Source: Caulobacteraceae bacterium (GTDB lineage: Bacteria > Pseudomonadota > Alphaproteobacteria > Caulobacterales > Caulobacteraceae). From it: 61,980 bases of DNA. The position numbers and the translations under genes are program-made. Of the stretch, positions 29,031-42,448 are shown piece after piece. The first letter of the stretch is position 1; each line of letters begins with the position of its first letter. Under the pieces are notes generated by a model, which did not search any database, was not told where the DNA came from, and was given only the letters and a program-made list of their open reading frames with translations. Where the stretch lies: NCBI GenBank assembly GCA_025352085.1, contig JANXUA010000112.1, positions 1-61,980 on the forward strand. The letters are read 5' to 3'.

Positions 29031-29924
29031 TCAAGCCTTGTCGAACTTGTCCCGTCGACGGTGGCCGAACAGCAGCCGATGTTCCAGACGCCCGCGCAGG
29101 GCGCCGTAATAGGCGGTTAGAAAGGCGACGTCGGTCTCGCCCGGCGCGGGCGCCCACCCGATCTTGCCCTGGATGCGCGAAGCCACGGCTTTCAGCGTGC
29201 GTGGATCGCGACGACGAAGGACGTCTTCAAGAATTTCCAACTCCTTGACCCCGTAGGCGTTCACCTGTTCGGGGGTGAAGGTGAAGGCCGGTGTAAACAC
29301 GCTTCGGTTGGCGGCCCCGGCCAGATCGGGCGCCAAGGCGAATCGCGGGGATTTCACCACCCAGGTGCCGGCGACGATATCGCCCATGCGCAACCGATCG
29401 CGGTTGAACAGCGGGAACAGCATGAAGGCGCCCGACCAGATCACCGCCATCAGGACGATCAGGCCGTCAATCGGATCGCCCGCCACCGACGAGGCCATAA
29501 GAAAGATCGGCGGCAGGAACACCTCGATTTCGCGCAGCGCATTGCGGGTGAAGACCGCTTCGGCCGTCAGCCGACCGCCGTCGCGGGCGACAACACGCAG
29601 GCCGAGCGCGCGCTTGCCGGGCGTCGCGGCGCGACTGGTCAATTCGAACAGCAGGAAATAACCGCTGCGCAGCACAAAGGCGCCCAGCAGCCAGATCATC
29701 TGCACAACCTCCTGGCTCTTGGCCTTCATCGTCGCCGCCGCCGCGACAGCCAGAATGGTCAGGACAATCAGCGCGACGACGATGATCACGAGATCCAGCA
29801 GGAGAGCCGCCGCCCGCTCGCCGGCGGACGCCAGGGTCAGGCGTAGATCGACGCCCTCCGGAGTCACCAGGGCGCGAACCAGCGACTTGGAGGCAGGCGA
29901 GGCCTGGGGATGGGACACGGTCAT
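29031..29924 (-). CDS. RDD-family membrane protein
   Basis: 297 residues. Two or three N-terminal helices (ALLLDLVIIVVALIVLTILAVAAA; LLGAFVLRSGYFLLFELT) followed by TPGKRALGLRVVARDGG, which is the RDD signature, then further hydrophobic segments. The C-terminal soluble region (VNAYGVKELEILEDVLRRRDP) is longer than in minimal RDD proteins. ATG 29922-29924 overlaps the SpoIIM-like stop (29921-29923), so it is the last gene of a MoxR-DUF58-SpoIIM-RDD operon. Function unknown; RDD proteins are often linked to transport or envelope maintenance. Confidence 0.82.
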   Translation of the reverse strand: MTVSHPQASPASKSLVRALVTPEGVDLRLTLASAGERAAALLLDLVIIVVALIVLTILAVAAAATMKAKSQEVVQMIWLLGAFVLRSGYFLLFELTSRAATPGKRALGLRVVARDGGRLTAEAVFTRNALREIEVFLPPIFLMASSVAGDPIDGLIVLMAVIWSGAFMLFPLFNRDRLRMGDIVAGTWVVKSPRFALAPDLAGAANRSVFTPAFTFTPEQVNAYGVKELEILEDVLRRRDPRTLKAVASRIQGKIGWAPAPGETDVAFLTAYYGALRGRLEHRLLFGHRRRDKFDKA

Positions 29925-30913
29925 GCCGTCTTCCCGCGCGGCAGATAGAAATAGGCCAGCCACAAAACGAGACTCACCCAGGCGATCGACCAACGCGCCC
30001 AATCGGCGGTGACGGTCTGGCGCCCCACGCCCTCGAGAATGCCGGCGAACACCAGCATCACCACCACCCCGGCCATCGCCGCGCCGGCGGTGCGACCGGC
30101 GGCCGAGGCGGCGTCAAGACGTGGCCGGTCGCCGGGAAAAATGACCGCCCAGCCGATTCTGAACCCCGCGGCGCCGGCGATGATCGTCGCCAGAAGCTCG
30201 GTTGCGCCATGGATGAAGAGCCAGCCGCCGACCTGAAACCCGAGACCCCGCGACGCGTAGAGCGCGAACAGCGCCCCCAAGCCGAGACCATTCTCGGCGA
30301 CCAGCAGGGCGGTGGGAATGCAGAAGGCGAACCCAAGGGCGAAGGCGAGAATCGACACCTGGGCATTGTGCGTGAACAGGAACGTCGCGAACGACGACAA
30401 CCCCTCATGGTGGTGGGTGTCATAGAGGATGGCCTTGAGGGCGGCGGTCGAGGCGGTCGGATCGCGACCCTGCTCCATGGCGCCGGGCATGATCGAGCCG
30501 TACCAATCGGGGTCGTGAATCACCAGAGCATAGCCGATCAGCGTCGCGGCTACGAAAATCACCGCCGAGACCAGCGTCTCGCGCCACAGGCCGCGCACCG
30601 CCATCGGCCAGTCATGCCGGAAAAAGCCGGTCACCTTCTGGAGGAGGCGCGTGCGCGTTCCATAGACGAAGAAGTAAGCGCGCGTGGCCAGGCTTTCGAG
30701 ATAGGCGATCAGGCTCGCGTCCAGCGCCGTCGCCCGCGCCACCGACAGCGACGACAGGGCGGCGCGGTAAAGCTGCGGTAGCTGCAGCAGCTCGCTGTCG
30801 CTAAGCCGGCCGGCGCGCCCGCGCTCGGCGCGCTTCAGCAGAGCCTCAAGCCGGCGCCAGTCAGCCTCACGCTCCGTGCGAAACCGCCCGCTGCGAAGGT
30901 CCAGACCGTTCAC
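29921..30913 (-). CDS. Stage II sporulation protein M-like membrane protein
   Basis: 330 residues: N-terminal helical soluble region, then about six membrane helices. Segments such as LFTHNAQVSILAFALGF, GLGLGALFALYASRG and GWLFIHGATELLATIIAGAAGFRIGWA match the SpoIIM/DUF95 superfamily. GTG at 30911-30913 overlaps the last bases of the DUF58 C-terminal frame (stop 30910-30912). In non-sporulating bacteria such genes sit in MoxR-DUF58-SpoIIM-RDD operons whose role is not settled. Confidence 0.85.
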   Translation of the reverse strand: MNGLDLRSGRFRTEREADWRRLEALLKRAERGRAGRLSDSELLQLPQLYRAALSSLSVARATALDASLIAYLESLATRAYFFVYGTRTRLLQKVTGFFRHDWPMAVRGLWRETLVSAVIFVAATLIGYALVIHDPDWYGSIMPGAMEQGRDPTASTAALKAILYDTHHHEGLSSFATFLFTHNAQVSILAFALGFAFCIPTALLVAENGLGLGALFALYASRGLGFQVGGWLFIHGATELLATIIAGAAGFRIGWAVIFPGDRPRLDAASAAGRTAGAAMAGVVVMLVFAGILEGVGRQTVTADWARWSIAWVSLVLWLAYFYLPRGKTA

Positions 30914-32214
30914 AACAGGTCCCTTCGCTTCAGGTCAAGATAGGCGCCGATCAGGGCCGATTCGATAGATAGGGCCGGCGCATCAACAACATGCACGCCC
31001 AGGCGCGCCAGGCGGGCGATCACCACGTCGCGGCTCTTGAGCAGGGCCCGCGCGGTCACGGCGCGCGACACGGCCGGGGCGTCGGTCGGCTCCGCGCGAG
31101 ATCGCCTCGAGTTCCTCATCGCGCATGACCACGAACAGAACCACATGCCGGCGCAGCAATCGGGTCAGGTTCTCCACCATCAATTCGGCGGTCGTCGAGT
31201 CGGCGAAATCGGTGAACACCACCACCAGCGAGCGGCGGCGTAGACTGACCCCCAGTTGCGTCAAGCCCAGGGTGTAGTTGGTCTCTTCGGGGCTATAGTC
31301 GAGCGCCGCCAACTGGCGTTGCAGGCGCGGAAACGCCGCCGGTCCCGAGACAATCCCCGAAAACCCGCGCGGCCGCGCGTCAAAGCCGAACACGCCCGCC
31401 GGATCGCCGGTCTTCAGGCTCACATAGGCCAGCAGCAGGGCGGCGTTGATGGCGCGGTCCACGCGCGGCTGGCCGAGCAGGGGCTCGCACATGGCCCGTC
31501 CGGTATCGATGGCCAGAACCACCGGGTGATTGCGGTCGGTGCGGAATTCCTTGCCGAGCAAAGCACCGTGTCGCGCCGATTGTTTCCAGTCAATCACGCG
31601 CGGATCGGTGGCGCCGTCCACTTCGCGCAGGGCGTGGAATTCGGAGCCCTCGCCAGTGTCACGTTGTAGCTTGACCCCGTGTTGGGCGTCACGAGCGAAC
31701 AGGATCATGGCGCGGGTCTTCACCGCCTGAACGTCCGGGCCGATGATCACAACGCGGCCCGGCGTTTCGCGCACCTGCTTCCAGACCAGACCAAGCACGC
31801 CTTGCCAGCGCAGCCACAAGGTCGATATCTCGCCCTCGCCGCGCCGTACGGAGGCCAGTGTCACGTCGGCTTCGGCGGTCTTGCCGGCGAAGGTCACCGT
31901 GGCCGGGCCGGGCGCCAGCATCAGCCGCGCGTTGGTCTCGACGGTGATCTGCGCTTGCCGCGGAGGTGCGCGATCAAAGGCGGCGCGGAGCACCGCCGTT
32001 GTCTGGGCGCCCATCCCCAGAACGACCGGGGCCTCGACGCCCACCGTGGCGGCGGCCCGCGACGGCCCGACCAGGGCGTCCACCAGGATCAAGCCCCCGA
32101 CCAGGGTCAGCCACGCGCCGACCGCCATCCAGTACCCCGGCGCGATCAGCCCCACGAACAGAGACACCGGCGCCCCCACGGCCGCCAGAATGATCGCCCG
32201 GCGGGTGGGATAGA

Positions 32215-32218
<4 letters not shown>
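30910..32218 (-). pseudogene. DUF58 protein gene (MoxR-associated, vWA-like), frameshifted near its C-terminus
   Basis: Intact homologues are about 430 residues. Here the frame beginning at TTG 32216-32218 reads MIYPTRRAI, two N-terminal membrane helices, then DPRVIDWKQSARHG (DUF58 signature) and VVVFTDFADSTTAE, and loses phase at the GC-repeat 31093-31098. The rest (AEPTDAPAVSRAVTARALL ... DLKRRDLL) continues in another frame to the stop at 30910-30912, overlapping the SpoIIM-like GTG. One extra base or two missing bases would restore a single frame. Either a recent mutation or a sequencing error in a GC run. The TTG start overlaps the MoxR stop (32215-32217). Confidence 0.82.
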
Positions 32219-33222
<1,004 letters not shown>

Positions 33223-33454
33223 CGCCGGTCAAGCGGGAGATCGCAAACCCGGTCGCCGTCTGATCAGGCGCGAAGCCGCGACCCCCTCCTGTCGCTCGGG
33301 CATTTTGACGATCACGGCAGCCCCGCGCCAAGATGGGATTGAGAATCGGGTGAGTCCACTTAAAACCGGAACCTAATCCCGTCTGGGGCGTCTATGAAGT
33401 CTGTGAGACAGATGGTCTTGGCCTCTCCCAAGCGATGACGCGTAAGAGGTCGAT
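33223..33454. other. Divergent promoter region between MoxR operon and HiPIP gene
   Basis: 232 bases that must hold promoters for both directions. No repeat copy, tRNA or long palindrome seen; I do not identify a convincing -35/-10 pair on either strand. Confidence 0.4.
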
Positions 33455-33733
33455 GTGCCACACCTTCCCAAATTCAGCTCTGCGCGGGTCTCGCGACGCC
33501 GGGTGCTCACCGGCGCCGTATTGGCGGGGGGCGCGGCTCTAGCGCTGGCCGGCGCTCCGGCGGCCGCGGGGGCCAAGAAGAAGATGTCTCAGAGCGCCGC
33601 GAGCTATCAGGACAAACCCAAAGGCTCGGCCCGCTGCGATGGCTGCGCCCTGTTCCAGAAACCCGCCGCTTGCCAGACGGTCGCGGGCGTCATCAGCCCG
33701 GCGGGCTGGTGCGTTCTGTTCGCGGCAAAATAG
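33455..33733 (+). CDS. High-potential iron-sulfur protein (HiPIP)
   Basis: 92 residues. N-terminal Tat-type signal: SRRRVLTGAVLAGGAALALAG (twin arginine at 13-16). The mature domain has four cysteines: C61 and C64 in ARCDGCALF, C73 in PAACQ, C86 in GWCVLF, with Y51 near the start of the fold and the GVISPAGWC ending typical of HiPIPs. These bind one 4Fe-4S cluster and act as periplasmic one-electron carriers. GTG start at 33455 with AAGAGG five bases upstream. The cytochrome-porin gene starts 32 bases after the stop, so the two are probably one transcript. A shift to Iro/PioC-type roles is possible by context. Confidence 0.88.
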   Translation: MPHLPKFSSARVSRRRVLTGAVLAGGAALALAGAPAAAGAKKKMSQSAASYQDKPKGSARCDGCALFQKPAACQTVAGVISPAGWCVLFAAK

Positions 33734-33765
33734 CGACCTGCGCGGTGGGTCGTACGCCGTCAGCG

Positions 33766-35103
33766 ATGATCTCGGCGGTCCGCGCGGGGTTGTTGGCGAT
33801 GGCCTCAATCGTCGCTCTTGGTCTTACAGCCGGCGCCGCGCGCGCTCTCCCGTCTTTTGCGGTTCAGACCGGACAGCCCTGCAACGCCTGCCACGTTGGC
33901 GGATTCGGGCCCCAGCTCACGCCGTTCGGCCGCGAGTTCAAGATGGGCGGCTACACCCTGCGAACAAACAGCTTCAACGTGCCGTTTTCGGCGATGGTCG
34001 TGGCGTCCTATATCCACACCCTGAAGGATCAACCGGGTCCGCCGCCCCGCCACTACGCCGCCAATGACAACGCCACTCTTGACCAAGCAAGCCTGTTTCT
34101 CGCCGGCGGACTTGGCTCGCACCTGGGGGCGTTCATTCAGACGACCTACGACGGCGTGGCGCGGGGATTCCACTGGGACAATCTGGACGTGCGGGCGGTG
34201 ACCAAGACGAAAATCGCCGGCGCAAGCGTTATCCTGGGCGCGAGCGTGAACAATGCGCCCACGGTGCAGGATGCCTTCAACACCCTGCCAGCCTGGGGCT
34301 ATCCCTATACCAGTTCCAGTCTGGCGCCGGCCGGCCCCGCCGCCCCCCTTATCGGCGGGCTGGCCCAGAATACCATCGGCCTGACCGGCTATGTGTGGGT
34401 TAACGCCTCGATCTACGCCGAGTTCGGCGGCTACCAGTCGCCCGGCACGAGATTCCTCATCGCCACGGGCATCGACCCGCTGAGTCCGGGCGACATTCGC
34501 GGATCGGCTCCTTACGCCAGAGTGGCCTACCAAAAGAACTTTGGAACGAGCAATTTCGAGGTCGGCGCGTTCGGCCTGTGGGCGGACCTCTATCCGGGCC
34601 GTGATCGCAGCGCCGGCGTCACCGATCACTACGCCGATACCGGCGTGGATGCGTCGTACCAGTTGTTCCGGAAGAACAAGGACGTCTTCACCCTCAACAG
34701 CCGCTACACGCACGAGGCGCAGAGGCTCGGGGCGTCACAGGCGCTTGGACTGTCGCAAAACGGGGCCAACAGCCTTAATGATATCCGGATCGACGCGTCG
34801 TACTATTGGCGGAACAAGATCGGCGCCACGATCGGGGCCTTCGACACCTGGGGATCGGCCGACACCCTGCTTTACGGCGGCGACCGCACCTTCCAGCCGG
34901 ATACCTCCGGCTTGCTGTTTCAGATCGACGGCACGCCGTTCGGCGGCGCCGGTTCGCCCCTGGGCGCGCGCTTCAACGTCCGCGTCGGCGCTCAATACAC
35001 GCTCTACACCAAGTTCGGGGGGGCACAGCGCAACTTCGATGCGATGGGCCGCAACGCGTCCGACAACAACACCTTCAGGGTCTTCACCTGGATCGCTTAC
35101 TGA
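33766..35103 (+). CDS. Cytochrome c-porin fusion, Cyc2-like
   Basis: 445 residues from ATG 33766. Signal peptide 1-27 (ARA cleavage) is followed at once by PSFAVQTGQPCNACHVGG (C39, C42, H43: one c-type haem) and PQLTPFGREFKMGGYTL, a segment shared with Cyc2 of Fe(II)-oxidising bacteria. The remaining 370 or so residues lack hydrophobic helices, alternate polar and nonpolar stretches, are rich in Gly, Tyr and Asn, and end in TWIAY, as expected of a 16-strand outer-membrane barrel. Best reading: an outer-membrane electron conduit. Cluster-wide Cyc2 homology should be tested, as single-haem porins of unknown role are also common. A longer open frame from 33670 overlaps the HiPIP gene and is rejected. 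Confidence 0.8.
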   Translation: MISAVRAGLLAMASIVALGLTAGAARALPSFAVQTGQPCNACHVGGFGPQLTPFGREFKMGGYTLRTNSFNVPFSAMVVASYIHTLKDQPGPPPRHYAANDNATLDQASLFLAGGLGSHLGAFIQTTYDGVARGFHWDNLDVRAVTKTKIAGASVILGASVNNAPTVQDAFNTLPAWGYPYTSSSLAPAGPAAPLIGGLAQNTIGLTGYVWVNASIYAEFGGYQSPGTRFLIATGIDPLSPGDIRGSAPYARVAYQKNFGTSNFEVGAFGLWADLYPGRDRSAGVTDHYADTGVDASYQLFRKNKDVFTLNSRYTHEAQRLGASQALGLSQNGANSLNDIRIDASYYWRNKIGATIGAFDTWGSADTLLYGGDRTFQPDTSGLLFQIDGTPFGGAGSPLGARFNVRVGAQYTLYTKFGGAQRNFDAMGRNASDNNTFRVFTWIAY

Positions 35104-35268: not shown

Positions 35269-38200
35269 ATGAACCGGTTGTGGGCTGCGGGGATCGCGTG
35301 TCTGAGCGTGGGGCTGGGGGCCGGTTTCCTGGTCGCCAAGGTTTCCGATGGCGCGTTCGGCGTGCGGCCCGTCGCATCGAGCGCCGCCGCGGACAGTTGG
35401 TCCCTGTTCGGCCACCCCCGCGCCGCCGGCGCGCCCCGTCCCGGCGCCCCCAAGCCTGATGGCTTCGCGGTGTGGAAGACCCGGCTCGACACCGCGTCGG
35501 GCCAGCCGCTCGCCTGCGTTGAGCTCACCCGCCCGTTGGATCCGGCCAAGCCCTACGCCGACTATGTGTTGATCTCGCCCGAGCTTGACCACAAGCCGGC
35601 GGTGACCGCGCGGGGCGACGAGGTGTGCGTCGGCGGGATCGGCTTCGCCGACCGGCGCATCACCCTGCTCAAGGGCCTGCCGGACAAGGCCGGCGACACG
35701 CTCGCCGACAATGCCGACGTCGAATTCGCCTTTGGCGACAAACCTCCCTATGTCGGTTTCGCCGGGTCGGGCGTGATCCTGCCGCGCGACGAATCCGATG
35801 GCGTCGGCATCGAAACCATCTATGTCAAAAAGCTCGCCATCGAGGTGTGGCGGGTGCCGGACCGCAATCTGGTGCGCAAGACGATCAGCGCCCCCTCTCC
35901 CACCGGCGAGGGCCAGTACGCCGACGACTACGGCGACAGCACAGCCGAGGACGAGGGCCGGATGGTGTGGAAGGGCGTCGTCGCGGTGAACGGCGATCCG
36001 GCGGCCAAGACGACGACCGTCTTTCCCTTGGGCGCGGTGCTGAAAACCATGTCGCCGGGCGGGTATCTGATCAAGGCGAAGGACGCGTCCGGCGGGCGCG
36101 ATCTGGTGGATAAGGGTGGCGGCGACAACCAGCCGGCCCAGGCGCGGCGATGGGTCATGTTCACCGACATGGCGCTGACCGCCTATAGCGGCGCGGATTC
36201 TCTGGACGTCGTGGTGCGTTCGCTGAAAACCGCCAAAACCTTGAGCGGCCTGCGCGTCGCCCTGGTGGCCAGGGACGGCGAGACCCTCGGCGAGACAAAT
36301 GCGGATGGGTCCGGACGGGCGGAGTTCGCCCACGCCTTGCTCGCCGGGGAGGGAGGAAGCGCGGCCAAGATGATCATGGCCTATGGCGCGCAGGGCGATC
36401 TGGCCGTGCTCGATCTGGACCGCTCGCCGCTGGATCTGTCCAAGCAAAGCGCGGGCGGGCGGGATGTGTCCGGCGCCCTGACCGGCCGCGCGCCGGGAAC
36501 GGCCGTCGACGGTTATGTCTACAGCGATCGGGGCATCTATCGGCCCGGCGAGCGGGTGCATTTGAGCGCCCTGGTGCGGGATCGCTCGAGCCGGGCGATA
36601 GGCGACCGCAAGGGCTATTTGTTGGTCAAGCGCCCGTCGGGCGTGGAGTTCCGGCGGTATCTGTTCGGCGACGCCGACGGGGGGGCGGTCGTCGCCGACG
36701 TCGATCTGCCGAGGAGCGCGCCGCGCGGGCATTGGACGGCGGAGCTGCACATCGACGGCTATGACGCCCCGGCCGGAAGTCTGTCGTTCTCCGTGGAGGA
36801 CTTCACGCCCCAGCGGCTGGCGGTCACGGCCACGGGGCGATCGGCCGCGCCGGTCGTCGCCGGCGAGTCCCGGGCGGTGGATGTCACGGCGCGCTTTTTG
36901 TATGGCGCGACGGGCTCGGGCCTGAAGACCCAGGGCGAGGCGCGCCTGAAGGTCGATCCGGATCCGTTTCCGCGGTTCGCCGGCTATGAATGGGGCGATC
37001 AGGTCAAGCCGTTCGACGAAAAGTTCGTCGAGCTGGGTTCGACCGTCACCGACGGGGCCGGGCACGCCGGTCTGACCTTGGCCGCGTCGGCGGCGGGCGA
37101 GACGGCCGATCCCCTGGTGGCGGCGGTGACGGCCTCGGTGTTCGAGCCGGGCGGGCGGCCGGTGCGCCAGGGTCTGGCCCTCAACGTGCGCACCAAACCG
37201 CTCTATCTGGGGGTGAAGGCGGACACCGGCGACGCGACCGGCGGACGCGATACGCCGGTCAGCTTGAGCATGATCGCCGTGGACGCCGCCGGCCATCGCA
37301 TCGCCGCGCCGGGCGCGACCTACAGCCTGATCCGCGAGAACTGGACCTATGACTGGTATCAGCAGGACGGCCGCTGGCAATGGCGCCGGACCAGCCACGA
37401 CGTGGTGATCGCCAAGGGTGTCCTGGACATCGCCGCCGACGCGCCCGCGCGGCTGAGCAAACGTCTCGGCTGGGGCGACTATCGCGTGGAACTGACCGGC
37501 CCGGGCGGGGCCCGAACCCTGCGACGCTTTTCCGCCGGCTGGGGCGCGCCATCCGAGGACGTCGAGGCGCCCGATCAGGTGCGCCTGAGCGTCGACTCAA
37601 ACACGCACGGCCAGGGCGACACCCTCACCGTCAACATCAAGGGGCCCTATGCCGGCGAGGCGCAGATCGCCGTCGCCACCGATCGCGTCATCGATTTCAA
37701 GACCGCGCGGATCGGCGCCGACGGCGGCGCGGTTCGCTTGAAGACCTCGGCGGCCTGGGGCGGCGGCGCCTATGTCATGGTGACCATCGTCCAGCCGCGC
37801 GATCCGGGCGTGACGCCCCAGCCGCGTCGGGCGCTCGGCCTGATCTGGGCGCCGCTCGATCCTAAAAGCCGCCGCCTGACGGTGGCGATCGGAACGCCGG
37901 TCAAGATCGACAGCCACGCGCCGGTGACCGTCCCCATTGAGGTCAAGGGTCTGGGTTTCGGCCAGTCGGCCTTTGTCACCGTCGCGGCGGTGGACGAGGG
38001 CATTCTCGCCCTGACCAAGTACGAGAGCCCCGATCCGGCGAAATGGTATTTCGGCAAGCGGGCGCTCACCGTCGAATACCGCGACGACTACGGCCGTTTG
38101 CTCGACGCCAATCTGGGGGCGCCGGCGGGGGTGAATTTCGGTGGCGACGAGCTGGGCGCGCAGGGCCTGACCGTCACCCCGGTCAAGACCGTCGCCCTGT

Positions 38201-40215
38201 GGTCGGGCGTGGTGAAGACGGGTCTCGACGGCCGCGCCACGGTCAAGCTGCCGCCGGGCGATTTCAACGGCCAGTTGCGCATCATGGCGGTGGCGTGGAC
38301 CGAAAAGGCGGTCGGGTCCGCCTCCCAGGCCATGACCGTGCGCGAGCCGGTGGTCGCCGATCTCAACCTGCCGCGCTTTTTGGCGCCCGGCGACACGCCG
38401 ATGGCCACACTCGAACTGCACAATCTCGAGGGGAAGGCCGGCGACTACGCCGTCCAGACCGGCGCCGGCGGCGGGCTGTGGGCGGTATTCAAGAAGACTC
38501 TGCACCTGATCGTCGGTCAGCGAATTGCTCAATTGTTCGCCTTCGCCGCCCCGACCCACACCGGGATCAGCAAGGTGGGCTTTCAGGTGAGCGGCCCCGG
38601 CTTCGCGACCGCCAAATCCTATGAAATTCAGACCCGCCTCGGCTGGGGGCCGATCACCCGGACGACCACGCAGCTGCAGCGTCCGGGCGAGGCGTTCACG
38701 CCCCCCGCCGCCCTGCTGGCCAGGCTAGCGGCCGGTGACGTCAATCTGCAGGTCAGCTATTCGCCGTTCCAGGGTTTCGATCCCGCGGCCGTGGCTTTGG
38801 CGCTGTCGCGCTATCCCTATGGTTGCACCGAGCAGCTGACCTCGGTGGGCTATCCCCTCTTGTATTCCGACGAACTGGGCGGCGATCCGGTGGCGAAGCG
38901 GGCCCTGGCCGACGCAGTCGGCAAGCTCCTGGACCGACAGAGCCTGGACGGCGCCTTTGGCCTGTGGCGGGTCGGCGACGGCGAGGCCGATCCGTGGCTG
39001 GGCGCCTACGCCGCCGATTTCCTGTGGGAGGCCAAGACGCGCGGCGCGCCGGTCACCGATGAGGCCATGGGCCGTTCGCTGGCCGCCCTGCGCCAGATCA
39101 GCCGACCGGACGGCTTCGCGTCGGTCTCCTACAAGATGAGCTATGACGCTGGCCCCGGACTCGCCAAGGCCGAGGCCGACGCCATGACCAAACGCCTGCG
39201 CTCGCGCGCCTCGGCGTACGCCCTCTATGTCCTGGCCAAGGCCGGGAAGGGCGATTTGCCGCGCCTGCGCTGGTGGCACGACGTGCAGATGAAGGACGAA
39301 AAATCGCCCCTCGCCATGGCGCAGGTCGGCGCCGGTCTCGCGGCCATGGGCGATCACGCCCGCGCCCGCTCGGCGCTGCATCAAGCGGCGGCGGCGTTGG
39401 GCTACAAGGACGCCAACGATTGGTATCAGAGCCCGCTGCGCGATCTCGCCGGTGTCATCGCCCTCAGCTATCAGGCCAGCGAAGTCGATATCGCCCGCAG
39501 CCTGCAAGGGCGCCTGGAGGGCGCGGTCAAAAACCCCGACCAGCTCAACACCCAGGAAGAGGCGCGCCTGCTCGAAGCGGCGCATTACATGCTGCGCGCC
39601 GCCGGTCCGATGCGCGTCACCGCGACCGGCGTGGTTCCCTTGGCGCGGGTCGGCGGGGCGCCGCGCTGGGCGGTCGGTCGCCTCGTCGACGCGCGCTTCG
39701 TCAATGCCGGAACCGGCGCGCTGTGGCGGACGGTGACGGTGCGCGGCACGCCGTTGGCCGCGCCGGGCGCCTCGGCGAACGGCCTCACGGTGGCCAAGAC
39801 GTTCTACAACCTCTCCGGGGCCCCAGTGAATCTGGCCGCCGTCCGTCAGGGCGACCGGATCATCGTGCGCATTTCGGGAAGCTCCGGGCAGGGGCGCACC
39901 ACACCCCTGGCGATCAACGACGCCCTGCCGGCCGGTTTTGAGATCGAGTCGACCCTGAACCCCGCGGACACGACCGACGGTCCCTTCAAATTCCTCGGCA
40001 AGCTAACCACCGCCAGCGCTCAGGAAAGCCGCGACGACCGCTATGTCGCGACGCTTTCGCTGCCGGGAAACCAGCCGTTCGCCTTCGCCTACATCGCTCG
40101 GGCCGTCACCCCCGGCGGATTCTTCCTGCCCGGCGCCGAGGTGTTCGACATGTACCATCCGGCGATTTCAGCACGCACCGCCGCCGGCCGGCTGGCGATC
40201 ACGCCGGCGGGGTGA
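35269..40215 (+). CDS. Bacterial alpha-2-macroglobulin family protein, YfhM type
   Basis: 1648 residues. Signal/anchor at the N-terminus (WAAGIACLSVGLGAGFLVA), then beta-rich macroglobulin domains (YSDRGIYRPGERVHLSALVRD is the MG2-like signature; VEDFTPQRLAVTA). The thioester CTEQ is intact (C1186, Q1189) in YPYGCTEQLTSVGYPLL, unlike many thioester-less bacterial homologues. A bait region, complement-like domain and C-terminal receptor-like domain should follow. Bacterial A2M traps invading proteases in the periplasm and is typically encoded beside pbpC, as here, so that envelope damage can be repaired. Confidence 0.92.
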   Translation: MNRLWAAGIACLSVGLGAGFLVAKVSDGAFGVRPVASSAAADSWSLFGHPRAAGAPRPGAPKPDGFAVWKTRLDTASGQPLACVELTRPLDPAKPYADYVLISPELDHKPAVTARGDEVCVGGIGFADRRITLLKGLPDKAGDTLADNADVEFAFGDKPPYVGFAGSGVILPRDESDGVGIETIYVKKLAIEVWRVPDRNLVRKTISAPSPTGEGQYADDYGDSTAEDEGRMVWKGVVAVNGDPAAKTTTVFPLGAVLKTMSPGGYLIKAKDASGGRDLVDKGGGDNQPAQARRWVMFTDMALTAYSGADSLDVVVRSLKTAKTLSGLRVALVARDGETLGETNADGSGRAEFAHALLAGEGGSAAKMIMAYGAQGDLAVLDLDRSPLDLSKQSAGGRDVSGALTGRAPGTAVDGYVYSDRGIYRPGERVHLSALVRDRSSRAIGDRKGYLLVKRPSGVEFRRYLFGDADGGAVVADVDLPRSAPRGHWTAELHIDGYDAPAGSLSFSVEDFTPQRLAVTATGRSAAPVVAGESRAVDVTARFLYGATGSGLKTQGEARLKVDPDPFPRFAGYEWGDQVKPFDEKFVELGSTVTDGAGHAGLTLAASAAGETADPLVAAVTASVFEPGGRPVRQGLALNVRTKPLYLGVKADTGDATGGRDTPVSLSMIAVDAAGHRIAAPGATYSLIRENWTYDWYQQDGRWQWRRTSHDVVIAKGVLDIAADAPARLSKRLGWGDYRVELTGPGGARTLRRFSAGWGAPSEDVEAPDQVRLSVDSNTHGQGDTLTVNIKGPYAGEAQIAVATDRVIDFKTARIGADGGAVRLKTSAAWGGGAYVMVTIVQPRDPGVTPQPRRALGLIWAPLDPKSRRLTVAIGTPVKIDSHAPVTVPIEVKGLGFGQSAFVTVAAVDEGILALTKYESPDPAKWYFGKRALTVEYRDDYGRLLDANLGAPAGVNFGGDELGAQGLTVTPVKTVALWSGVVKTGLDGRATVKLPPGDFNGQLRIMAVAWTEKAVGSASQAMTVREPVVADLNLPRFLAPGDTPMATLELHNLEGKAGDYAVQTGAGGGLWAVFKKTLHLIVGQRIAQLFAFAAPTHTGISKVGFQVSGPGFATAKSYEIQTRLGWGPITRTTTQLQRPGEAFTPPAALLARLAAGDVNLQVSYSPFQGFDPAAVALALSRYPYGCTEQLTSVGYPLLYSDELGGDPVAKRALADAVGKLLDRQSLDGAFGLWRVGDGEADPWLGAYAADFLWEAKTRGAPVTDEAMGRSLAALRQISRPDGFASVSYKMSYDAGPGLAKAEADAMTKRLRSRASAYALYVLAKAGKGDLPRLRWWHDVQMKDEKSPLAMAQVGAGLAAMGDHARARSALHQAAAALGYKDANDWYQSPLRDLAGVIALSYQASEVDIARSLQGRLEGAVKNPDQLNTQEEARLLEAAHYMLRAAGPMRVTATGVVPLARVGGAPRWAVGRLVDARFVNAGTGALWRTVTVRGTPLAAPGASANGLTVAKTFYNLSGAPVNLAAVRQGDRIIVRISGSSGQGRTTPLAINDALPAGFEIESTLNPADTTDGPFKFLGKLTTASAQESRDDRYVATLSLPGNQPFAFAYIARAVTPGGFFLPGAEVFDMYHPAISARTAAGRLAITPAG

Positions 40216-40240
40216 GAAAGATGCGGCTGCAAGCGTGGTT

Positions 40241-40394
40241 CGCCCCCTCCGTCTCGCGCAAGAGCGCGCGATCCACCTCCCCCGCCGCGCTGCGCTTGCA
40301 TGGGAGGAGCGATAATAATGCTGCTCCTCCCCTGTCCCGAAGAGGACGGGGGAGGTGGCGCGGCGCTCTCGTTTGCGCCGTGACGGAGGGGGCG
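40241..40394. repeat. Intergenic repeat family B, copy 1
   Basis: 154 bases with inverted termini CGCCCCCTCCGTC / GACGGAGGGGGCG and internal CACCTCCCCC...GGGGGAGGTGG arms, so the whole element can fold as a long hairpin. It fills the gap between the A2M gene and pbpC. The second copy at 56824-56987 has its inner part inverted. Confidence 0.78.
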
Positions 40395-40414
40395 AACGGC
40401 ATCGCCGGCAGAGC

Positions 40415-42448
40415 GTGATTCCCCGTATCGTCCGTGCACTGATCGCGCTCCTCGCGCTCGAAACCGCGCTTCTCACCCTCGATACGCTCTTTCCTCCGGA
40501 CCTGACGCGCGGCGAGCGATCTTCGCCGGTCGTGCTCGACCGTCACGGCGCCTGGCTGCGCGCCCTGCCGGTGGAGAACGGACGCTGGCGCATCCGCGCC
40601 GATCTTGACCGCATCGATCCGATCTATCTTGAGCGCCTCACGCGGATGGAGGATGGGCGGTTTGGCTGGCATGTCGGCGTGGACCCCATCGCGGTCGTCC
40701 GCGCGGTCGCCTCGGCGGCGGTTCATGGGCGCGTCACCTCGGGCGCCTCGACCCTGACCATGCAGACCGCGCGTCTGCTGGCGCCGCACCGCCGCAGCCT
40801 TGGCGACAAGGTCGTCGAAATGATCCGCGCCGTGCAGTTGGAGGCGCGCTATTCCAAGCCGCAGATCCTCGCCCTCTATCTGACCCTTGCCCCCTACGGC
40901 GGCAATCTGGAGGGCGTTCGCGCCGCCAGCCTGGCCTATTTCGGCCATGAGCCGAGCGCGCTGACCGACGGCGAGCAGGCCCTGCTGATCGCCATGCCGC
41001 AATCGCCCGAGGCGCGGCGGCCCGACCGTCGGCCAGGCGCGGCGCGCGCGGCGCGCGCGCGGGTGCTGGGGCGGATGGCGCGTAGCGGTCTGATCGAACC
41101 GGCGGCGGCGCGCGAGGCGATGGCCGAGGCCCTGCCCACCCGCGCGCCCTTCCCGGCGCTGGCCTGGCACGCCGCCGGGCAACTGGCTCGCGCGGCGCCC
41201 GCCGATCAGGCCTCGGTGGTCAGCACGCTCGACGCCGATCTGCAATCGCGCCTGGAACCCATGGCCGCCGCGGCCGCGCGGAGCCAGGGCGACAAGACCG
41301 TCGTCGCCGTCCTGGTGGTGGAGATCAAGAACCGCGCGGTGCGCGCCGCCATCGGCTCGGGCGGCCTGGGTCGACCGGGCGGCTGGATCGACATGACCCG
41401 CGCCCTTCGCTCGCCGGGCTCGGCGCTCAAGCCGTTGATCTACGCCTTCGCCTTCGACGATGGTCTGGCCGCCCCCGACACCCAGATCGACGACGCGCCG
41501 CGCCGGTTCGTCGACTATCAACCCGAGGATTTCGACCGCACCTTCCATGGCAAGGTGACCGCGCGCGAGGCGTTGATCTATTCGCTCAATGTTCCCGCCG
41601 TCACACTTCTGGGCAAGATCGGCGCGCCGGCCTTCGAGGCGCGGCTACAGGCGATGGGGGTGAAGCTGGTGCGCCCGAAGGCCGCGTTCAGCGACGCGGG
41701 CCTGGCCCTGGCCCTGGGCGGCGAGGGCATGTCCCTGCGCGATCTGGCCTTGCTCTACGCGGCGCTGGGAGATGACGGTGTGGTCAAGCCGCTGACGTGG
41801 ACCGAAGCCGACGCCGCGCGGATTGAACAATCGCCCGGGCGACGTCTTCTGCGACCGGCCGCCGCGACCCAGGTGCTCGACATCCTGCGCGAAGGGCCGG
41901 CGCCGAAAGGCCGCATCCCCGCCGCTCTCACCCAAGGCGGGCCGGGTCTGGCGTTCAAGACCGGCACATCCTACGCCTTTCGCGACGCGGTCGCCGTCGG
42001 CGTGGTCGGCGGCTATGTCATCGCGGTGTGGACGGGCCGGGCCGACGGCGGCGCGCGCGACGGCCTGACCGGGCGCGAAGCGGCCCTGCCGCTTCTCTTT
42101 GACGTCGCCGATCAAGTCGGCGCGCCACACGCGGCGCCGCATCCGCTTGGACCCAAGGGCGCCCCGAGCGCGCTCACCACTCTTGAGACCGACGCCCCCG
42201 GCCCGCGGCTGATTTTCCCGCCCAACGGCGCGACGGTGATGGCCGATGGCTTTGGCCCCGCGGCGCGTGGCCTGACCCTGGCGGCGCGCGGCGATCATCT
42301 CGACTGGTACGTCGACGGCGCCTTGATTGCGCCCGATCCGGTCAGCGGCCAGGCCGTCTGGCGCCCGTCGGGGCCCGGCTTCTTCCACGTCGTCGTGGTC
42401 GATGGAGACGGCCGCCGGGCGCACGCGCGGGTGCGGGTCAAAGGGTGA
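40415..42448 (+). CDS. pbpC: Bifunctional penicillin-binding protein 1C (PbpC)
   Basis: 677 residues from GTG 40415. One N-terminal helix, then the GT51 glycosyltransferase domain (RMEDGRFGWHVG with catalytic E79), the transpeptidase domain with SPGSALKP (S336 and K339), YSLNVPAVTL and KTGTS, and a C-terminal BiPBP domain (LIFPPNGATV). Builds or repairs peptidoglycan at the outer face of the inner membrane. The frame is open 20 codons upstream, but those codons come from repeat family B and contain no signal, so the GTG is preferred. The pair A2M-pbpC is conserved in many proteobacteria. Confidence 0.93.
   Translation: MIPRIVRALIALLALETALLTLDTLFPPDLTRGERSSPVVLDRHGAWLRALPVENGRWRIRADLDRIDPIYLERLTRMEDGRFGWHVGVDPIAVVRAVASAAVHGRVTSGASTLTMQTARLLAPHRRSLGDKVVEMIRAVQLEARYSKPQILALYLTLAPYGGNLEGVRAASLAYFGHEPSALTDGEQALLIAMPQSPEARRPDRRPGAARAARARVLGRMARSGLIEPAAAREAMAEALPTRAPFPALAWHAAGQLARAAPADQASVVSTLDADLQSRLEPMAAAAARSQGDKTVVAVLVVEIKNRAVRAAIGSGGLGRPGGWIDMTRALRSPGSALKPLIYAFAFDDGLAAPDTQIDDAPRRFVDYQPEDFDRTFHGKVTAREALIYSLNVPAVTLLGKIGAPAFEARLQAMGVKLVRPKAAFSDAGLALALGGEGMSLRDLALLYAALGDDGVVKPLTWTEADAARIEQSPGRRLLRPAAATQVLDILREGPAPKGRIPAALTQGGPGLAFKTGTSYAFRDAVAVGVVGGYVIAVWTGRADGGARDGLTGREAALPLLFDVADQVGAPHAAPHPLGPKGAPSALTTLETDAPGPRLIFPPNGATVMADGFGPAARGLTLAARGDHLDWYVDGALIAPDPVSGQAVWRPSGPGFFHVVVVDGDGRRAHARVRVKG

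Follow-up and report, generated by a model that had tools for sequence, protein, structure and literature searches.

On the forward strand of a contig from a soil-type Caulobacteraceae bacterium we found the gene of a Tat-type HiPIP just upstream of the gene of a monohaem cytochrome-porin, and we consider, with a probability of roughly 60%, that the two constitute an electron-uptake module for a donor of the Fe(II) type, serving its host in an auxiliary role. The initial annotation of the window (the whole stretch of DNA analysed, 61,980 nucleotides of contig JANXUA010000112.1) had suggested a two-gene electron module of HiPIP and Cyc2-like haem-porin in an alphaproteobacterium, a proposal that is now supported by the homology to Cyc2 and by the conserved pairing. 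At the level of sequence, the comparisons presented here establish the homology of the haem-porin to Cyc2, the conservation and adjacency of the pair, and the repeated exchange of the HiPIP for a cytochrome c.

The HiPIP gene

The following features were assigned to the upstream gene:

33444..33449, + strand: Shine-Dalgarno-like AAGAGG, 5 nt before the GTG start of the HiPIP gene (sequence)
33455..33733, + strand: HiPIP gene, 92 aa, PioC-like, mature part about 53 aa (PioC 6xyv match, alignment A2)
33491..33502, + strand: twin-arginine motif SRRR in the Tat signal (R14, R15 invariant)
33635..33712, + strand: [4Fe-4S] cluster-binding region, C61-x2-C64-x8-C73-x12-C86 (alignment A2)

The description given earlier, of a Tat-type HiPIP with a four-cysteine cluster followed 32 nt on (HiPIP stop to the porin ATG at 33766) by a haem-porin with a CNACH site, is borne out by the sequence and by the homologues. 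The twin-arginine signal, SRRRVL, lies at the N-terminus, and its arginines R14 and R15 are invariant in 10 of 10 aligned HiPIPs (alignment A2); C61, C64, C73, C86, Y51 and W85 are likewise invariant in this alignment, and F67 is also present beside Y51 and W85. Four cysteines at HiPIP spacing, the GWC motif and similarity to solved HiPIPs were all found, the best solved match being PioC of R. palustris (6xyv; E 1.1e-10, phmmer against solved chains). Pfam HIPIP (PF01355) scored 18.1 bits, under its gathering cut-off of 22, which is a library threshold and no structural feature, and NCBIfam Iro (NF041615) scored 61.6 bits (6.5e-17), under its equivalog cut-off of 100. Because neither curated cut-off was reached, the protein is classified from its sequence as a PioC-like HiPIP and not as an Iro. 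Its predicted structure was poor (pLDDT 49) and was left out of the analysis.

The cytochrome-porin gene and its predicted barrel

The downstream gene carries the features listed here:

33766..35103, + strand: cytochrome-porin gene, 445 aa; start uncertain, with GTG 33745 and ATG 33799 also in frame (translation, homologues)
33766..33846, + strand: predicted Sec-type signal peptide, residues 1-27 (..AARA/LPSF; sequence, model helix 2-21)
33844..33870, + strand: ALPSFAVQT, at the place of the Cyc2 motif AxPxFAR[QK][TY], with Val for Arg (motif comparison with PMC8406198)
33880..33894, + strand: CNACH haem-attachment site, residues 39-43 (C39, C42 and H43 invariant in alignment A1)
33985..35097, + strand: 16-stranded beta-barrel, residues 74-444 (AlphaFold model m8fa5d5cf803b, fold matches)
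34252..34374, + strand: long loop between strands 5 and 6 at the porin L3 position, beginning NAPTVQDAFNTLPAWGYPY (second N of NNAPTVQD; AlphaFold strand limits)

The protein contains a single CxxCH and ends in WIAY, its terminal residue being aromatic. It is the sole CxxCH protein that a simple gene caller yielded in the window, and the gene is single-copy in the 3.0 Mb genome, which is rated 100% complete. No matching family was found in Pfam or NCBIfam, nor any sequence match among solved structures, profile search included. Candidates for the distal haem ligand are K59 (invariant) and M77 (mostly conserved); no second histidine is conserved family-wide, and H119 of the porin is invariant in Caulobacteraceae only. 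A promoter scan gave nothing above chance, and terminator-like sites were in slight excess (4 versus 1.6 in shuffles), most of them inside the genes.

The structure prediction proposed as a check in the initial annotation came out in favour of a porin: AlphaFold2, with 26 homologues in the alignment, predicts exactly 16 strands over residues 74-444 (pLDDT 82, pTM 0.82), and the best fold matches are the 16-strand porins OmpC and OmpF (Z about 22-23; Foldseek, VIA-align 2). OprO/OprP, the porins that Keffer et al. matched for Cyc2 (PMC8406198), are also among the fold matches. Conservation within the barrel is highest in the L3-position loop, which opens with the motif NNAPTVQD and is shared by the Cyc2 of the rusticyanin operon.

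An outer-membrane location of the haem-porin is what we infer, and by analogy with Cyc2, whose haem domain Keffer et al. 2021 argued to be a plug at the periplasmic side (PMC8406198), the haem domain would face the periplasm. Such an orientation had been put forward as grounds for rejecting the module; this was mistaken, since for Cyc2 itself the haem plug has been placed on the periplasmic side (PMC8406198). The extracellular donor that had been envisaged is narrowed by the same geometry, which is better suited to a donor that enters the pore in solution than to an electrode or a mineral.

Relation to Cyc2

The Cyc2 references in our tree comprised the rows of the rusticyanin operon, located via a TIGR03095 search, and the family f38. 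A family-profile match over the full length (1.8e-106) connects the window protein with the haem-porin of genome G885, which stands 7 kb from rusticyanin in an operon of the cyc2-coxBACD-ctaAB-rus type (loci L107, L109). This Acidithiobacillus-type Cyc2 (G885, L107) shares with the window protein the predicted signal peptide, the one CxxCH, the PxL motif, the FGR-FK-GYT haem domain, a porin of the 16-strand type and the NNxPxxxD loop. It differs in the Arg of AxPxFAR, which is Val here, and in the genes around it: the carrier here is a HiPIP and not rusticyanin, and coxBACD does not adjoin. The f38 family, which presumably represents the Cluster 1 Cyc2 of the Mariprofundus PV-1 type, matched in the haem domain and the first strands (E about 1e-22); it differs by a very long branch, a barely alignable barrel, a retained Arg and a four-residue loop before PxL. 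Proteins of the form AIPAFARQTG..CLSCHFQSFP.L occur in nearly all f38 genomes, which appear to be Zetaproteobacteria.

Cyc2 has been defined by a test motif that precedes the haem site, AxPxFAR[QK][TY] (PMC8406198). As the haem-porin reads ALPSFAVQT at this place, with Val for Arg, it is Cyc2-related by sequence and not Cyc2 sensu stricto by the published motif. PQL follows CxxCH after 5 residues, against 4 in the Cyc2 definition and 3 in the rusticyanin-operon homologue. Other elements of the definition were found in the protein, namely the single CxxCH and, where at least 365 aa and a 16-strand porin are asked for, 445 aa and 16 predicted strands. In the IQ-TREE phylogeny the window protein falls into a Caulobacteraceae clade of its own (100/100), far from the Zetaproteobacteria-like branch and in a part of the tree that also holds the rusticyanin-operon rows. 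The Cyc2-like identity assigned earlier stands as to full-length homology and falls short as to the strict motif, in which Val replaces Arg; the PxL spacing also departs from the published one, and the protein sits in a clade of its own. The published Cyc2 tree left out sequences without the motif (PMC8406198), and the Caulobacteraceae clade would therefore have been excluded from it.

None of the 27 Caulobacteraceae rows has the motif Arg, although they keep the other motif positions; every Zetaproteobacteria-like and every rusticyanin-operon row has it. The state of this Arg changes 5 times on the tree, with losses outside Caulobacteraceae too. Absence across the clade means that function may have drifted, which counts against the uptake module. 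The Arg-less clade might then have another substrate and work as a redox sensor or detoxifying oxidase, or admit electrons from a different small molecule (Mn, phenols, sulfur species), with only the architecture remaining Cyc2-like. We regard this as unlikely on balance. The recurrent loss of Arg from an otherwise kept motif agrees with it, as does the functional uncertainty of many distant homologues according to Keffer et al. (PMC8406198); however, the clade has lost neither the haem domain nor the L3-position loop nor its redox-carrier neighbour, so that electron transfer itself has probably been kept too.

Additionally, an Arg-less haem-porin with a c-type cytochrome downstream was seen on an A. 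ferrooxidans plasmid (L062, CP084173.1); on a plasmid of Acidiphilium cryptum (NC_009469.1) such an Arg-less haem-porin shows the same degree of identity to the query. Several Zetaproteobacteria-like genomes hold at least 2 Cyc2-type genes, some of them 2-3 kb apart (G437:C314, G521:C23).

Conserved pairing and exchange of the carrier

Homologues of the HiPIP and the porin, 40-67% identical, keep the same gene order in many genomes, so the pair is not a product of chance. The porin is present in 37 of 249 genomes of the family Caulobacteraceae and, within the window's genus, in all listed genomes except two. A clear HiPIP of the window type occurs in 28 of the 249, and both genes together in 24, matches weaker than about 1e-5 being excluded from the HiPIP counts (Fisher 3.5e-20 for co-occurrence, with the kinship of genomes ignored). 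At 14 sites in 12 family genomes the HiPIP lies 24-110 nt upstream of the porin on the same strand. Outside the family, a HiPIP also precedes Arg-type homologues at loci L025, L064 (Caballeronia), L069 and L071; in Caballeronia the HiPIP stands before the haem-porin and a cytochrome c after it. At L069 and L071, which belong to another alphaproteobacterial family, two tandem HiPIP genes lie upstream of the Arg-type haem-porin.

Several porin-bearing Caulobacteraceae have no HiPIP neighbour, which counts against the uptake module as proposed. Where the HiPIP is missing, a monohaem cytochrome c (PF00034) usually follows directly downstream, mostly overlapping the porin end. In a hand count of the 33 distinct sites in Caulobacteraceae that are flanked by at least 1.4 kb on each side, the neighbour of the porin is a HiPIP at 11, a cytochrome c at 19, both at 1 and neither at 2 (Fisher 4e-6 for the alternation, kinship ignored). 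The carrier changes 6 times on the tree in 868 of 1000 bootstrap trees, 5 times in 130 and 4 times in 2, and two genomes (G070, G110) have one site of each kind. Changes repeated 4-6 times point to a dedicated, exchangeable periplasmic partner, and this repeated exchange is the strongest evidence for regarding HiPIP and cytochrome c as putative redox partners that can stand in for each other beside the haem-porin. For Zetaproteobacteria, carriers that are interchangeable have already been described (PMC7029218).

It is very improbable that the two genes are accidental neighbours and that the HiPIP works in ordinary periplasmic electron transfer from the bc1 complex to an oxidase. HiPIPs do occur at sites other than next to the porin, and in four genomes of the family a clear HiPIP stands without any porin, but the recurrent adjacency, the near-exclusive alternation with cytochrome c and the repeated exchange on the tree all speak for a functional pair. 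The repeated exchange beside the same haem-porin is an experiment of nature that points to the likely periplasmic partner of Cyc2-type proteins, and the carrier-swapped relatives offer material on which that partner can be tested.

Host genome and proposed electron flow

Searches of the genome found neither RuBisCO nor a photosynthetic reaction centre nor any member of the TIGR03507 decahaem family; elsewhere in it, two COX1-type genes for subunit I of an oxidase and three proteins related to the partner cytochrome c were found. On these grounds the host is probably an aerobic heterotroph in which the module is auxiliary. Photoferrotrophy was dropped because a photosynthetic reaction centre was sought in the genome and not found; autotrophy through the CBB cycle was dropped because RuBisCO was not found, and its absence makes RuBisCO-based lithoautotrophy unlikely.

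In the uptake module that we favour, the cytochrome-porin would form a 16-strand barrel in the outer membrane, closed at its periplasmic end by the N-terminal monohaem domain. The haem would be reduced by a small reductant that enters the pore in solution, the likeliest being Fe(II), either free or in a complex; the HiPIP, which the Tat route would export in the folded state, would receive the electron in the periplasm and pass it, directly or through another c-type cytochrome, to a terminal oxidase of aerobic respiration. At the sister loci a monohaem cytochrome c would take the HiPIP's role. The published potentials, +450 mV for PioC (PMC10879576) and +208 mV for the Cyc2 of PV-1 (PMC8406198), fit an inward flow. 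Inward direction, Fe(II) as donor, and an auxiliary and not autotrophic role together make up the reading that we infer.

The reverse route, in which electrons derived from quinol would reach the haem-porin by way of HiPIP or cytochrome c, there to reduce Fe(III) or humics in the pore, seems to us improbable. A reverse use of Cyc2 and Hip-dependent Fe(III) reduction (Cyc2B/Hip) have been proposed for anaerobic Acidithiobacillus (PMC8790237), and bogs, where Fe(III) and humics are plausible acceptors, have yielded relatives of the window genome. In view of its high potential, however, a HiPIP would be ill suited to reducing Fe(III) at a pH close to neutral: besides the +450 mV of PioC, values of +510 to +633 mV are given for Hip and Iro (PMC10879576).

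More broadly, and at somewhat less than even odds, the Arg-less clade derived from Cyc2 and its exchangeable carriers may represent a widespread route of extracellular electron uptake (lithoheterotrophy) in non-phototrophic Caulobacteraceae lacking RuBisCO, lying outside the published Cyc2 markers. If this were true, the uptake of electrons from iron or other extracellular donors would extend to common soil and freshwater heterotrophs, which are not counted as iron oxidisers and which escape the standard Cyc2 motif filter.

Comparison with known systems

PioC of Rhodopseudomonas palustris TIE-1 resembles the HiPIP in 24 of 51 aligned residues (hand count), in size, in cysteine pattern and in the Trp before the last Cys, and it serves an outer-membrane conduit, as is proposed here. 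In contrast, its partners are the decahaem PioA and the 26-strand-type PioB, and the partner here is a monohaem porin; pioA and pioB beside pioC, which define PioABC, have no counterpart, as the simple gene caller yielded no multihaem gene in the window.

A chain of Cyc2, HiPIP-41 and cytochrome c4 has been proposed for Ferrovum (PMC10879576, PMC4725956), which likewise unites a Cyc2-type haem-porin and a high-potential HiPIP; Ferrovum, however, is an acidophilic iron oxidiser, and the two genes there (FERRO_13930, FERRO_02670) are, to judge from the locus tags, apparently not neighbours. According to the portion of PMC10715153 drawn on here, Cyc2 homologues of Acetobacteraceae, alphaproteobacterial too, often adjoin a mono- or dihaem cytochrome c; that portion reports no HiPIP neighbour, and Caulobacteraceae lie outside its scope. 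Among the titles and abstracts of open-licence papers, nothing on the pair was found for Caulobacter or Caulobacteraceae together with Cyc2 or extracellular electron transfer, and in the open-licence papers searched, neither the Caulobacteraceae clade nor HiPIP genes adjoining the porin nor the repeated exchange was found to be reported. What is new is the pairing of HiPIP and porin genes, the carrier swap and the Arg-less clade, the Cyc2-plus-HiPIP chain itself having already been proposed for Ferrovum.

As for the surroundings of the pair, a row of genes for a MoxR-type AAA ATPase, DUF58, SpoIIM and RDD proteins (29031-33222, - strand) lies directly upstream and divergent from it, and on the other side follow a bacterial alpha-2-macroglobulin and then a penicillin-binding protein with a PBP C-terminal domain (35269-42448, + strand).
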